Below the pieces are notes generated by a model. It saw nothing but the letters and a program-made list of their open reading frames with translations. It did no database searches and had not been told where the DNA came from. A stretch of DNA of 64,000 nt, taken from assembly GCF_030817415.1 (NCBI RefSeq), contig NZ_JAUSZI010000002.1:2232001-2296000 (forward strand), given 5' to 3'. Made by a program: the position numbers and the translations under genes. This stretch comes from Streptomyces umbrinus (GTDB lineage: Bacteria > Actinomycetota > Actinomycetes > Streptomycetales > Streptomycetaceae). This document shows, piece by piece, positions 1 to 5,150 of this stretch (its first letter is position 1; each line of letters opens with the position of its first letter).

Positions 1-399
1 CGCGAGGAGCGTCGGGCCGTCGATCCTGCGCAGGCCGTCCAGGAAGACCCCGGTGCCGAGCCGCCAGGTGAGCACGGTGAGGATCACGACGCCGGCGATG
101 GTGCCGAAGTGGGTGCGCAGGACGCGGGAATCGAGGCGCGCCAGGACGGGACCCGCGACGCCGGCCAGCACCTTGCGCGGACCCGCGGTGGGCGTGTCCG
201 CCGTCGCGTCGGCGCGGGCGGACCCGGTCTCGCCGTCCCCGCCGTTCTCGCCGTTCTCGCCGTTCTCGCCGTTCTCGCCGTCGAGGCGTACTCGTCCGGT
301 CTCCCGTTCCTCCGCACCGCCGTCACGGACCGCCGACGACAGTTCGTCGTCCAGGGCGGCCAGTGACTGTGCCTCGTCCGCCATCGCCGGCGTGCTCAT
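1..399 (-). CDS. YbhN-type (lysylphosphatidylglycerol synthase TM / flippase-like) membrane protein, N-terminal fragment
   Basis: Only the first 133 codons are inside the window; the frame stays open to base 1. The ATG shares one base with the stop of the upstream methyltransferase (TGATG), so translation is probably coupled. The first 90 or so residues are hydrophilic and include four Gly-Glu-Asn repeats. Residues about 97-113 form a first membrane helix (GTIAGVVILTVLTW), followed by LGTGVFLDGLRRIDG, which resembles the start of YbhN/UPF0104 proteins, relatives of the MprF flippase domain. The operon position after a glycosyltransferase and a methyltransferase fits a lipid-linked glycoconjugate translocation role, which is inference. 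The family call rests on only about 40 residues. Confidence 0.6.
   Translation of the reverse strand, partial: MSTPAMADEAQSLAALDDELSSAVRDGGAEERETGRVRLDGENGENGENGENGGDGETGSARADATADTPTAGPRKVLAGVAGPVLARLDSRVLRTHFGTIAGVVILTVLTWRLGTGVFLDGLRRIDGPTLLA
244..279 (-). repeat. 9-bp in-frame tandem repeat, four copies
   Basis: Four perfect copies of GTTCTCGCC (plus strand) lie head to tail. On the coding minus strand they encode Gly-Glu-Asn four times in the hydrophilic N-terminal linker of the flippase-like protein. Copy number is likely to vary between strains by slippage without breaking the frame. Confidence 0.9.
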
Positions 400-1463
400 C
401 AGGCTCCCCCTGTCGGGCGGGCCAGGGCGAGCAGGTCACTGTGGTGCACCACCACGCTCAACTGGCCCGCCTCGCAGGCCGCGAGGCGCTCCTTGAGGTA
501 GGCGTCGGCGCGCTCGGCCAGTGCCGGGCGCTCCTCGACGGCCGCGCCGACCCAGCCGCGCAGCCACTCCGCGGTCAGCGCGGACTCGTCCGGGCCGAGG
601 CGCCAGGCACTCGGGTGCACCCGGACCGTCGCGCCGTGCCGGGCGAAGGCGTCGCAGGCCGCGTTGATCGCTTCGGGGCCGAGCAGGTCGCCGCGCCGCT
701 GGTGGGCGTTGAACGCGTCGGCGATCTCCTCGTCCAGCGGGTGGGCCGGGGCGAGTTCGACGCGTCCGACCACGGAGAGCGTCAGGAGCGCGGGGCAGCC
801 GGCTCCGGCGCAGGCCGCGGCCAGGGCCTCGATCTCGTCCGTGGTGAGGACGTCAAGGAGCGCGGAGGCCGTCACCAGCGAGGCGCCGGCCAGGGCGTCC
901 GCGGTCAGCCGGGCGACGTCGCCACGCTGTGTCTCCACCGTGACGCGGCTGCCGTCGGCGGCCGACCGGGGCGACCCGACGGCGGCGAAGTGCAGCAGAT
1001 AGGGGTCGCGGTCGTGCAGCACCCAGTGCTGGGGCCCGTCGAGCCGGGGCGCGAGCCAGCGGCCCATGGAGCCGGTGCCGCAGCCCAGGTCGTGGATGAC
1101 GAGTCCGCCACGCCCCGGCAGGTTCGCGAGCCGGATCCGCAGCGGGTCGAGCAGCTCGGCCGCCCGGGCGGCCGCGTCGACGGGCTCGCGCAGTTCCAGC
1201 CATTCGGGGGCGTAGCGGGTCGCGTCGTCGATGGCCTCGCCGCGGGTGCGGTCACCAAGCCGAATCGTTCCTGTGTCCCGCCCCTGGCCCGGAACCACGG
1301 CCTCGGTCTCGGTCGTCGTCATCTCGTCGCGTCCCCGCCCTGCCGTGTGCGTCCCCTCACCACGTCCCAGCGAGGCGGTGCTCGTCTCCTCGTCGAGGCC
1401 GGGCTCGGCCGTCGTCATGCCATGTCCTGGAATCCCGGCCGGCGTCGTGCTCGTACCGCTCAT
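399..1463 (-). CDS. Class I SAM-dependent methyltransferase
   Basis: 354 residues. A Rossmann SAM-binding motif I is clear at about residues 124-133 (HDLGCGTGSMG), with following acidic and aromatic positions (HDRDPYLLHF) as in class I methyltransferases. The first 60 or so residues are a Thr/Glu/Gly-rich low-complexity tail with no family match that I know. The ATG at 1463 follows a GGAGG-type site and lies in an ATGA-type overlap with the glycosyltransferase stop; a much longer open frame upstream lies inside the glycosyltransferase gene and is not used. Substrate unknown; methylation of a sugar, lipid or pteridine-like group made by the neighbours is a guess. Within this cluster it sits between the GT4 and the YbhN-like gene, all overlapping. 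Confidence 0.85.
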   Translation of the reverse strand: MSGTSTTPAGIPGHGMTTAEPGLDEETSTASLGRGEGTHTAGRGRDEMTTTETEAVVPGQGRDTGTIRLGDRTRGEAIDDATRYAPEWLELREPVDAAARAAELLDPLRIRLANLPGRGGLVIHDLGCGTGSMGRWLAPRLDGPQHWVLHDRDPYLLHFAAVGSPRSAADGSRVTVETQRGDVARLTADALAGASLVTASALLDVLTTDEIEALAAACAGAGCPALLTLSVVGRVELAPAHPLDEEIADAFNAHQRRGDLLGPEAINAACDAFARHGATVRVHPSAWRLGPDESALTAEWLRGWVGAAVEERPALAERADAYLKERLAACEAGQLSVVVHHSDLLALARPTGGA

Positions 1464-2587
1464 GCCGCCCCCCTCCTTGCCTCGCTCTTCAGTCGCCCCA
1501 GGACACCCGACAGACTCCGGGCCGTGGCGGCCCAGCCTCCGAGGGACGCCCGGCGGGCGCGCGCGGCGGCCTTGAGGCGACGGCGTACGTCGGCCTCGCC
1601 GAACCAGCCGCGCAGTTCGGCCGCGAGGGCCGCGGGGTTCTCCGGCGGCACGAGGAGCCCGGGCACCCCGCCGTCGGGCGCGCGCCCGACCGCCTCGGGG
1701 AGCCCGCCGACGTCCGTGGCCAGCACGGGGATACCGCGGGCGAGCGCCTCGGTGACGGCCATGCCGTACGTCTCGGCGTACGAGGTGAGGACCATGAGGT
1801 CGGCGGAGGCGTAGCTCGCGTCGAGGGCGGCGCCGGACTGGGGGCCGGCCAGGTGCAGCCGGTCGCCGAGGCCGTGCTGCTCGATCAGCGCCCGTAGCCC
1901 GGCCACGTACTCGGGGTCGTGGTCGAGGCCGCCGACGAGGACGCAGGTCCAGGGCAGGTCGGTGACCGCGGCGAGGGCCTCGACCAGTCGGTGCTGCCCC
2001 TTGCGCGGGGTGACCGAGGCGACGCACAGCAGCCGCGAGACACCGTCGGTACCGGAGGCGAGCGGTGCGATGTCGGCGCCGGGCGCGGCGACATGGACCC
2101 GGTCGGGCGCGAGGCCGTGGTGGGCGACGAGCCTGCGGGCCGCCCACTCGCTGGTGGCGACGACGGCGGGCACGGACCGCAGCGTGCGGCGCTCACGGGC
2201 GTCGAGGTCCGCGGCGAGCGCGGGCGTGAGTCCCGTCTCGTCGCCGAGCGGCAGGTGCACGAGGACGACCAGCCGCAGGCGTTCGGCCTCCGGGATGACG
2301 ATCTCGGGGACCGCGCAGGCGACGATGCCGTCGAGGAGTACGACGGTGTCGTCGGCCAGGTCCGCGAGGGTGCGGGCCAGTTCGGCGCGGGCCGGGGCCT
2401 CGGGCTGGGGCCAGCTCCCGTCGATCGCGTGCTTGTGGACCTGCCAGCCGAAGCCGGGAAGGTCGAAGCTGACCCGGGCGTCGTAGACGTTGCCGCCGCT
2501 CGGCATGGTCGGGTCGTTGACCGCGCCGGGCATCACGAAGTGCATGGCGCGCAGGGACATGGGGATGATGTCGGCGTTGTGGTTCAC
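1460..2587 (-). CDS. GT4-family glycosyltransferase
   Basis: 375 residues with GT-B architecture. The C-terminal half carries the GT4 donor-binding signature ([17 protein letters not shown], an E-x7-E type motif), preceded by a typical [14 protein letters not shown] stretch. Such enzymes transfer a sugar from a nucleotide or lipid-linked donor with retention of configuration, normally at the inner face of the membrane. It starts with GTG at 2587, overlapping the stop of the PTPS-like gene by four bases (GTGA), and itself overlaps the methyltransferase start, so three genes are tightly coupled. Acceptor is not evident; the lipid enzyme and flippase in the same locus suggest a membrane acceptor. 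Confidence 0.88.
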
Positions 2588-2982
2588 AGGGCACGCTCGT
2601 AACTCGCCCAGGCGATGTGCGACTCGTGCAGGGTGACGGTGATGCCGGCCAGGCCGCGGGCGCCTTCGCCAAGCAGGCCCTTCTCCACGCGCTCGGCGAG
2701 GCGGTCGGCGACGACCTTGGCCAGGAACTCCGTCGAGGTGTTGGTGTCGGCGAACACCGGCTCGTTGTCGAGGTTCCGGTAGTTCATCTCGGCCACCACC
2801 TCCCCGAGTTCCCTGGTGGCCAGTCCGATGTCGACGACGATGTTGTCGTCGTCCAGCTCGGCGCGGCGGAACGTGGCGTCCACGAGGAACGTCGCCCCGT
2901 GCAGGCGCTGCGCGGGTCCGAAGACCTCTCCGCGGAAGCTGTGGGCGATCATCAGGTGATCGCGGACGGTGATGCTGAACAA
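2584..2982 (-). CDS. PTPS/QueD-fold protein with altered active site
   Basis: 132 residues, the usual size of a 6-pyruvoyl-tetrahydropterin synthase / 6-carboxytetrahydropterin synthase. Family features visible: an early AHSF histidine, an [16 protein letters not shown] segment matching the conserved (M)VxDF helix, NTSTEFLA matching PTxEN, and a C-terminal glutamate in [12 protein letters not shown]. The canonical Cys-x3-His-Gly-His block reads AQRLHGAT here, so the catalytic Cys and one zinc His are Ala, and the LDH catalytic His position reads MNY. I therefore expect a changed reaction or a binding role. Start chosen at TTG 2982, which has GGAGG eight bases upstream; an internal ATG would remove the first beta strand. 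Overlaps the glycosyltransferase start. Confidence 0.78.
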
Positions 2983-3179
2983 CGGACGACCCTCCAGGTG
3001 CGGCGCGTCTGACCCCTCTGCCGGGGCGTGCCGTGTAGTACGGCCGGTCCGTTCTCCGTGTTCAGGGGGTTCGGCTCGGAGTTTCGGCCAATGGTGCCCA
3101 GCACAGGAGGACAGAGAGACGGTGAGTGCGAACTTGGTTACCGGTGTGAGGACTTGGTCACTCGATGGACACCAGGTGA

Positions 3180-4220
3180 CTACGGGGTGTCTTCGGGGTG
3201 GCCGGTGGGGCCGACGGGTCGCGTGTCGTGATCCGGGGCGGGAGTGGCGTCGTACCGCACGAGGTGACACAGCGCTGTCGTCTGTCCCGCGGCGAGTTCC
3301 GCCATCGCCTCCGGCAGGTCCTCGAAGGCGCATTCGCCCGTGATCAGGGCGTCGAGGGCCGGGTCGGCGAGCAGGTCGAGGGCGATGGCGAGGCGGTCGG
3401 CGTAGGTGCGGCGGGCGCTCCTGGCCGGGGAGACGGTTCCGACCTGACTGCTGCGTATCACCAGGCGGCGGGAGTGGAACGCCTCGCCGAGCGGCAGGCT
3501 GACCTTCCGGTCGCCGTACCAGCTCAGTTCGAGGACGGTGCCCTCCGGTGCGAGGAGTTCGAGCGATCGGGCGAGCCCGGCCTCGGTGGCGCTGGCGTGG
3601 ACGACCAGGTCGCGGTCGCCTGCCGCGTCCGCCGGGAGCGCGAAGTCGACGCCGAGTGCCTGTGCGATGTCGGCGCGCGCCGGGTTGGCGTCGACGAGTT
3701 GGACCCGGGCCGCGGGAAACCGGGCAAGGAGCGCGGCGACACTCGCGCCGACCATGCCGGCGCCGACCACGGTGATGCGGTCGCCGATCAACGGCGTCGC
3801 GTCCCACAGGGCGTTGACGGCGGTCTCCACGGTTCCGGCGAGTACGGCGCGCGAGGCGGGGACGGTCTCGGGCACGGGAGTCACGGCGCTCGCCGGGACG
3901 ACGAACCGGGTCTGGTGCGGATAGAGGGAGAAGACGGTCCGCCCGAGGAGGTCCGTCGGGCCCGCCTCCACCACTCCTACGTTCAGGTACCCGTACTTGA
4001 CCGGGCCGGGGAAGTCGCCCTCCTGGAAGGGCGCCCGCATGGCGGCGTGCTGGCTCTCCGGCACGCCTCCCCGGAAGACGAGCGTCTCGGTTCCGCGGCT
4101 CACCCCTGAGAAAAGTGTTCGCACCACGACCTCGCCCTCGGCGGGTTCGGGCAGTTGGGTGTCCCGGATCTCGCCGAGGCCGGGAGAGCGGAGCCAGAAG
4201 GCGCGGGCGGAGCGGTCCAT
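3180..4220 (-). CDS. MDR-superfamily (zinc-type alcohol dehydrogenase-like) oxidoreductase
   Basis: 346 residues. Medium-chain dehydrogenase/reductase fold: N-terminal GroES-like domain, then a Rossmann motif [16 protein letters not shown] at about residue 150. The usual catalytic-zinc Cys of the GxCGTD motif is Ser ([11 protein letters not shown]) and the structural four-Cys lobe is missing, so it is probably zinc-free, as in BchC-like or quinone-reductase-like members. ATG at 4220 has an AGGAGG site; a longer in-frame start at 4244 lacks one. It is first in the minus-strand cluster, about 200 bp ahead of the PTPS-like gene, and divergent from the CDP-alcohol phosphatidyltransferase, with both promoters in the 144-bp gap. 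Substrate unknown. Confidence 0.8.
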
Positions 4221-4364
4221 TCGGCATCCTCCTGGGTGGTCCATGTGAATGGGCTGAGCAAATCAGCTGAACGATCGGGCGGCGAGCCACGTACCGACCT
4301 TTGCGAAGCCGCGCACAAGGTACGCGGCAATGATCGACTCTGTCACCTGGCCGGAGGATGTGCG

Positions 4365-5150
4365 GTGGCCCTGAACAACACGTACGACGCGAGGCTCTTG
4401 CAGCAGGAGACGGCCGTGGGAGCGGGTGTGCAGCTTCTGTTGCTCACCGTGCTCGGCACGGCGCTCGGCATGGGGCCCGTGGGCTGGCTGACGGGACTGG
4501 CGTTCGCGCTCGCGACGTGGGCGGTGCTCTCACGCGCCCTGCATCGCACGCGGCCCCGTTCCTTCGGACCGGCGAACCGCGTGACCCTGGGCCGGGCCAC
4601 CCTTGTCGGCGGAGTGACCGCGCTGGTCGCGGACTCCTTCCAGAGCCCGCCGCCGGTCACCGTCCTGGTGGCCCTCACCGCGGTCGCCCTGATTCTCGAC
4701 GCGGTCGACGGCAAGGTCGCCAGGCGGACGGGTTCCTCCTCCGCGCTGGGCGCGCGGTTCGACATGGAGGTCGACGCGTTCCTGATCCTGGTGCTCAGCG
4801 TGTACGTCTCCACGACCGTCGGCCCCTGGGCACTCCTGATCGGCGGCATGCGCTACGCCTTCGTGGCGGCCGCCCGGTTCCTGCCCTGGCTGAACAACGC
4901 CCTCCCGCCGAGCACGGGCCGCAAGACGGTGGCCGCCCTCCAGGGCGTCCTGCTGCTGCTCGCGGGCTCGGGGATCCTCCCGTACGCCCCGACGTTCGGC
5001 GTCGTCGCTCTCGCCCTCGGCCTGCTGACGTGGTCGTTCGGCCGTGACATCGCGTGGCTGTGGCGCACGAGGGGCTCCGCCGAGCGGGGGGTTGAGCGGG
5101 TGGAGGTCGAGCGCCTCCACCGGGAGCCGGCCGGCGCGGGCGCCCAGTAA
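4365..5150 (+). CDS. CDP-alcohol phosphatidyltransferase family membrane protein
   Basis: 261 residues with about six membrane segments. The diagnostic CDP-AP motif D-x2-D-G-x2-A-R-x8-G-x3-D-x3-D is complete ([10 protein letters not shown] at about residues 114-123, then [10 protein letters not shown]). These enzymes displace CMP from a CDP-alcohol to build a phosphodiester on a lipid or polyol in the membrane. The GTG at 4365 follows GGAGG by seven bases; longer in-frame extensions upstream cross the divergent promoter region and lack a site. Its divergence from the dehydrogenase/PTPS-like/glycosyltransferase cluster suggests it makes or loads the lipid part of the same product. Acceptor not identifiable from sequence alone. 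Confidence 0.88.

Follow-up and report, generated by a model that had tools for sequence, protein, structure and literature searches.

A conserved gene cluster around a PTPS-like protein without its catalytic cysteine may build a GTP-derived, glycosylated and methylated pterin-like unit

What could a PTPS-like gene, of a kind that databases call a queuosine enzyme, be doing among genes for sugar transfer, methylation and membrane functions? The question is raised by the first 5150 bases of a 64,000-nucleotide stretch of the Streptomyces umbrinus genome (contig NZ_JAUSZI010000002.1 of assembly GCF_030817415.1, positions 2,232,001 to 2,296,000; hereafter the window), in which an earlier note, made from these letters alone, had described five minus-strand genes and a divergent gene for a CDP-alcohol phosphatidyltransferase (CDPAP), together proposed to make, decorate and move a lipid-anchored glycoconjugate with a pteridine-like unit. 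All six genes are real and lie where that note had placed them, within positions 1..5150 (Table 1). The left edge of the window falls inside the cluster, so that the window holds the larger part of it; the genome to its left completes the YbhN gene and contributes two more, ribA and a gene of the creatininase family. Here we argue, with confidence that is evenly balanced, that the cluster encodes a pathway starting from GTP and leading to a sugar-decorated, methylated pterin-like unit, perhaps handled at the membrane.

The idea that these genes work together stood or fell with a gene order conserved in relatives, and conserved it is. When 10 query proteins were compared with 100 loci that hold a PTPS match (80 named genome contigs, the best 80 of at least 566 relatives, and 20 stretches of further genomes), the order CDPAP, MDR dehydrogenase, PTPS, GT4 glycosyltransferase, methyltransferase, YbhN, creatininase and RibA, with CDPAP and creatininase in the opposite orientation, was complete in 78, and the shared gene order is therefore far beyond chance. 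Among the 80 named loci it was complete in 76, and it was so too in the two additional genomes from this genus; three of the other four named loci (L109, L128 and L134) stop soon after the PTPS gene, and the fourth, from Phytohabitans (L135), has RibD and neither RibA nor creatininase. The closest named loci by PTPS gene, among the matches listed, are from Streptomyces and 98% identical. A PTPS match was present in 67 of 150 genomes drawn within the genus (E 1e-8), in 57 of 394 within the class (E 1e-12), and in 46 of 396 within the phylum (E 1e-8), the last count taking in ordinary QueD-like copies.

Neighbours were also counted in a wider set of 142 loci, summed over five groups, in which an MDR gene lies at most 2.5 kb from the PTPS gene. 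Within 9 kb, these loci carry GT4 (141), the methyltransferase (131), CDPAP (119), YbhN (116), RibA (110), creatininase (90) and RibD_C (47). These counts are lower bounds, as an edge lies within 7 kb in 18 loci and distant copies may be missed; neighbours were called by tblastn at E 1e-5 with few queries, which diverged copies may escape. A smaller core of MDR, PTPS and GT4 reappears in distantly related actinobacteria and on plasmids of proteobacteria, the context outside Actinomycetota being that of ten proteobacterial plasmid loci. Together with other members, this core is found on plasmids of the Alphaproteobacteria Methylosinus, Peteryoungia, Neorhizobium, Rhizobium, Agrobacterium and Palleronia, and on those of Thiodictyon (Gammaproteobacteria) and Microbacterium. 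Rhodobacteraceae bacterium SC52 has MDR, PTPS, methyltransferase and RibD, with GT4 not among the genes annotated there, and the plasmid records of Arthrobacter, Allorhizobium and Rhizobium SSA_523, which carry no annotation, were judged by tblastn alone. The flanking ornithine cyclodeaminase-like and aldo-keto reductase genes were rejected as members, since they turned up in no more than 9 and 3 loci, respectively, out of 100.

The PTPS-like protein itself has its best PDB match in 3d7j, the structure of Streptomyces coelicolor SCO6650 (E 1.9e-73), to which it is identical at 114 of 132 positions (86%). It carries the sequence FGPAQ, which is invariant in all 12 members of our alignment (A2, window included) and which the relevant section of PMC5445326 gives as the signature of the PTPS-IV subfamily of COG0720. 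In the window, Ala occupies the position of the catalytic Cys, and HGA stands in place of HGH, so that the third metal-binding His is lost. All 142 copies with an MDR neighbour have Ala at the Cys position; the third His is replaced by Ala in 130 and by Val in one, and is retained in 11, all of one family (f18), whose distant copies keep FGPA without the Q. The C-terminal Glu (Glu120), a residue that anchors the pterin substrate in the PTPS fold, is kept in all 142. It should be noted that the 80 named loci were found with two patterns, one of them holding FGPA, and hence only the other 62 copies are free evidence for the Ala. Nine further copies have no MDR gene that near: four, from distant genomes, have Cys and HGH, two are cut off, and three have Ala, namely L150 and L223, which stand alone on plasmids, and L209, whose MDR gene sits further away. 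With the Cys gone from 142 and the third His from 131 of the 142 copies, PTPS/QueD chemistry cannot be assumed. The earlier interpretation is thus supported in part: ribA adjoining, along with creatininase or RibD, speaks for a GTP-derived pteridine or pyrimidine block, as opposed to the PTPS/QueD chemistry that had been read from the family name.

The two free-standing PTPS-IV-like copies lie on Streptomyces plasmids without the cluster (L150:8001-8426, 71% identical; L223:9001-9399, 78%). Near both are genes for MEKHLA-domain, cupin and MBL-fold proteins, a sigma factor and a BTAD regulator, and the MEKHLA protein of L150 also gives a weak PAS match.

Where, then, would the substrate come from? 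A Tyr at the so-called switch position is the mark of an ordinary GTP cyclohydrolase II, and in an alignment M. tuberculosis RibBA has this Tyr, where Met119 stands in the cluster RibA. The window's genome encodes two more RibAs, both with Tyr. RibA SCO6655 of S. coelicolor presumably has the same Met as the cluster RibA, and is reported by Spoonamore and Bandarian to release FAPy, the formyl intermediate, instead of the normal product. We surveyed this residue in 111 loci besides the window that hold PTPS, MDR and RibA within 9 kb. In 91 of the 92 loci with a non-Tyr RibA (Met in 81, Leu in 6, His in 4, Gln in 1), a creatininase gene lies within 9 kb, and in the sole exception, L195, the locus is cut just short; its genome encodes a creatininase (62% identical) at a distance of about 13 kb from the PTPS gene. 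Conversely, none of the 19 loci with a Tyr RibA has creatininase within this distance, and all 19 have RibD_C. Creatininase is likewise lacking in those 32 of the 142 loci in which RibA was not detected within 9 kb. Creatininase and RibD_C, which in one set of loci had seemed to exclude each other completely, are not mutually exclusive, since nine non-Tyr loci (eight Streptomyces and one Actinacidiphila) carry both. We infer that RibA and creatininase form a two-step route which leads, via a formyl intermediate, to the diaminopyrimidine for which RibA by itself normally suffices. A passage of PMC9478397 describes BrbF of Sinorhizobium, a creatininase-family formamidase proven on this same formyl intermediate, and calls the first enzyme of that route 'yet to be discovered'. 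The loss of Tyr from RibA next to a creatininase would provide a bacterial partner pair for such a formamidase route, whose first enzyme that passage leaves missing in Sinorhizobium.

A RibA tree was built by a quick method from 58 rows: the window, 55 loci with Streptomyces thinned, and both non-cluster RibAs that the window's genome encodes. The cluster RibAs are spread over several parts of it, ten of the Tyr type standing beside a non-cluster RibA of the window's genome (99, starred), and therefore different RibA genes seem to have been recruited to the same core. The tree gave long-branch warnings, and only two of its RibAs come from outside clusters.

In the pathway that we propose, every step of which is read from the genes, the Met-type RibA would open GTP while keeping the formyl group, yielding 2-amino-5-formylamino-6-ribosylamino-4(3H)-pyrimidinone 5'-phosphate (FAPy, also AFRPP). 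The creatininase-family protein would then strip formate to give DARoPP, as a Tyr-type RibA does by itself, after which a RibD_C-type reductase, clustered in other lineages and here presumably supplied from elsewhere, would convert the ribosyl to a ribityl group; the window's genome has 18 RibD_C matches elsewhere. In the four RibD proteins scanned (L057, L126, L151 and L153), the reductase domain was matched and the deaminase domain in none. Because no deaminase domain accompanies the reductase, the pterin-like 2-amino group is expected to stay, and the product to be a 2-amino ribityl-pyrimidine rather than the uracil of riboflavin synthesis. More speculatively, the MDR protein and the PTPS-IV T-fold protein, with its substrate-anchoring Glu kept and its catalytic Cys lost, might turn the diaminopyrimidine into a unit that is either pterin-like or a modified pyrimidine. 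The window's MDR protein has no ADH_N match, and its ADH_zinc_N match is below cut-off; that of a relative, L057, exceeds both cut-offs. GT4, whose nearest solved relatives are 3c4q and 3c48 (E 1.1e-18), would by family attach a sugar, and methylation would fall to the methyltransferase. An AlphaFold2 model of the latter (mean pLDDT 80) has Foldseek matches to methyltransferases, the best at E 1.3e-10, and this fold search tells only that the protein is a methyltransferase. Lastly, and again speculatively, CDPAP might link the unit, a polyol phosphate, to lipid, and YbhN might carry the lipid-linked unit across the membrane. The cluster offers a testable pathway for the PTPS gene, which very probably is misnamed.

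Several observations weigh against this GTP-derived pathway or parts of it. The cluster RibA passes the ordinary ribA model TIGR00505 (220.2 bits, cut-off 205.85). The creatininase stays below the cut-offs of both ArfB (NF033501; 39.2 against 180 bits) and MftE (134.7 against 172). Furthermore, the loss of Tyr is a single change on the RibA tree (SH-aLRT 88, with long-branch warnings), leaving one independent pair, and for that reason the 92 non-Tyr loci are not 92 independent tests; the non-Tyr RibAs lie on one side of a single branch, and judging by the tree the Tyr was lost once, after which the switch residue drifted. RibA was not detected within 9 kb in 32 of the 142 loci, including 10 of the 11 of f18; RibD_C is present in 19 of these 32, and if the proposed pathway is right, these loci must use a RibA from elsewhere. 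RibD lies within 9 kb in only 10 of the 80 named loci and is absent from the window's cluster. A pteridine, if one does form, would also need a donor for its extra ring carbons. Finally, with tblastn, neither CDPAP nor YbhN was found within 9 kb in any of the 11 f18 loci.

So what exactly is the end product? The signature of CDP-alcohol phosphatidyltransferases, DxxDGxxAR(x8)GxxxDxxxD, is invariant in 13 of 13 CDPAP sequences. A Foldseek search with the CDPAP model gave no match at E 0.001 or better, and YbhN scores below cut-off with the flippase-like model TIGR00374 (23.7 against 43.2 bits). CDPAP and YbhN both occur in clusters of Actinomycetota and Alphaproteobacteria, and CDPAP also in Gammaproteobacteria, with the gene order varying. 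A rather doubtful reading, but one that would mean a new class of lipid head group if its membrane steps were true, is that in at least two bacterial phyla a GTP-derived, glycosylated and methylated pterin or ribityl-pyrimidine serves as the head group of a membrane phospholipid. RibA (or non-Tyr RibA with the formamidase), the RibD reductase, MDR and the re-purposed PTPS would build this head group, CDPAP would join it to lipid as PgsA does glycerol phosphate, and YbhN would flip the product. Both the lipid attachment and this end product we infer. It is possible, if tentatively so, that the core instead makes a soluble glycosylated, methylated metabolite or cofactor of pterin or ribityl-pyrimidine type, CDPAP and YbhN being a separate envelope module that travels along. 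Pterin glycosides are known in bacteria, one of the 41 structural matches of GT4, a weak one at E 3e-4, is to 9v0l, a tetrahydrobiopterin glucosyltransferase of solved structure, and the f18 loci just mentioned do have RibD, MDR, PTPS, GT4 and methyltransferase. However, both membrane genes are kept in well over a hundred of the 142 loci, across several lineages and in varying order, which hitch-hiking can hardly explain. As for the lipid conjugate of the earlier note, sugar transfer, methylation and a membrane module are borne out by protein family, whereas the lipid anchor is called into question by f18.

Three further explanations concern the purpose of the core. It appears improbable that the cluster replaces GTP cyclohydrolase I, with RibA, RibD and an MDR oxidation of the ribityl 2'-OH giving a 2'-keto intermediate that the T-fold protein closes to dihydroneopterin phosphate, later glycosylated. 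The chemistry is coherent by reasoning, BchC, which oxidises a secondary alcohol, is the best-scoring named model for MDR, though far below cut-off (E 5.7e-14, 51.9 bits against 291), and a FolB gene lies 2-3 kb from PTPS in all 11 f18 genomes. Yet GTP cyclohydrolase I is encoded in all 21 genomes tested (the cluster was read in 20 of these, and in G065 a PTPS match only), so that no folate bypass is needed, and the replacement was rejected. FolB was likewise dropped as a dedicated member of f18, being the sole copy in 10 of the 11 genomes and hence better seen as an ordinary folate enzyme. A role in F420 synthesis is more improbable still. F420 and the proposed route have a ribityl-pyrimidine precursor in common, and CofH scores above cut-off in 17 of 21 genomes that have the PTPS, the window's included. 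The PTPS-IV signature would fit as well, the archaeal PTPS-IV being tied to F420 by an unpublished statement quoted in a passage of PMC5041015. But CofH is below cut-off in G008, G866, G661 and G227, for which reason F420 was rejected as the common purpose; the loci with annotation list no gene of F420 synthesis, and near one of them, L222, lies a gene for an F420-dependent oxidoreductase. Least credible, almost to the point of dismissal, is a deazapurine pathway, for queuosine or a toyocamycin-like compound, with a true QueD. Databases do label the gene 6-carboxytetrahydropterin synthase, but the missing catalytic Cys largely refutes this, and with 34 bits in the QueD equivalog model, against a cut-off of 89, a true QueD function was rejected; nor do the annotated loci name QueE or QueC, though no search was aimed at either. 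The PTPS relatives that are encoded in at least 566 stretches under a queuosine name are very probably not queuosine enzymes.

In the f18 loci (L050-L057 and L062-L064), FolB and, in 9 of the 11, an acyltransferase-like gene are divergent and lie about 2-4 kb from PTPS.

How much of this was known? The PTPS-IV subfamily with PF00925 and RibD_C (PF01872) neighbours is already described in PMC5445326, and the SCO6650 structure 3d7j had been solved, while the PTPS-IV section of that paper is silent on MDR, GT4, methyltransferase, YbhN and CDP-alcohol genes and on the RibA switch residue. The window's locus resembles that subfamily in its FGPAQ motif and its adjoining PF00925 gene, and differs from it in having creatininase and no PF01872, which is present in 47 of the 142 related loci. 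The likeness to S. coelicolor lies in the PTPS-like protein shared with its SCO6650/SCO6655 locus. The formyl intermediate followed by a creatininase-family formamidase, as proposed here, recalls ArfA/ArfB of archaea and BrbF of Sinorhizobium; unlike in ArfA/ArfB, the first enzyme is a RibA relative and the creatininase falls short of the ArfB model, and unlike in both, the purpose appears not to be riboflavin. With QueD and the biopterin PTPS the protein shares the PTPS domain, two of three metal His residues and the C-terminal Glu, whereas it is without the third His and the catalytic Cys, which PMC5041015 places in the motifs CxxxHGH or CxxxxxHGH of PTPS-I and PTPS-II. Searches of the open-licence literature brought up no paper that tells what the cluster, SCO6650 or SCO6655 does; to that extent the earlier claim that no characterised pathway has this gene set holds, the PTPS-IV neighbourhood and the structure being the parts that were known.

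Table 1. Genes of the cluster, with positions counted from the first base of the window (negative numbers lie to its left).
Gene product	Position	Strand	Remarks
RibA-like GTP cyclohydrolase II	-2380..-1721, left of window (L002:13620-14279)	-	GTP_cyclohydro2 217.2 bits, cut-off 23.3
Creatininase-family protein, proposed formamidase	-1681..-890, left of window (L002:14319-15110)	+	PF02633 218.9 bits, cut-off 31.3
YbhN / LPG-synthase-TM flippase-like membrane protein	-1040..399 (1..399 in window)	-	Pfam LPG_synthase_TM 113.9 bits, cut-off 33.4
Class I S-adenosylmethionine (SAM)-dependent methyltransferase	399..1463	-	Pfam Methyltransf_25 27.5 bits, cut-off 27; start uncertain, 1463 or Met at 1322
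GT4-family glycosyltransferase	1460..2587	-	Pfam Glycos_transf_1 108.1 bits, cut-off 26.4
PTPS-like T-fold protein	2584..2982	-	TTG start; PTPS PF01242 77 bits, cut-off 22.4
MDR-superfamily dehydrogenase, BchC-like	3180..4244 (second start at 4220)	-	ADH_zinc_N 27.6 bits, below 31.8
CDP-alcohol phosphatidyltransferase (CDPAP)	4365..5150	+	GTG start; divergent from MDR gene

Taken as longest frames, the genes overlap by 1-4 bases at the GT4/PTPS, methyltransferase/GT4 and YbhN/methyltransferase junctions, and a gap of 197 bases separates the MDR and PTPS genes. The YbhN and creatininase frames overlap tail to tail by 151 bases (-1040..-890, left of the window). At window positions 230-290, the N-terminal part of the YbhN gene holds a short in-frame repeat with a nine-base unit, encoding GEN repeats; further to the left, an open frame at -10952..-9075 (L002) contains a run of seven-residue REPGAGS repeats.

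Other genes recur beside members of the cluster in related loci. A gene for a sulfatase-like membrane protein lies near PTPS in 24 of the 142 loci (L047:5826-7610 and L153:2472-4115 among them), often adjoining CDPAP; its product has a weak Pfam match or none, and no solved structural relative was found. An FkbM methyltransferase gene adjoins CDPAP in L153 and L219. In the family f89 loci L181, L185 and L188, GT4 and the methyltransferase gene are about 2.9-3.4 kb apart, with other genes in between. A gene of the cytochrome b561 type adjoins RibD in the proteobacterial plasmid clusters L219, L220, L153 and L151, and a gene for the MdoH membrane glucosyltransferase directly adjoins the MDR gene on plasmids of Methylosinus (L152:6079-7881) and Neorhizobium (L154:6098-8011).

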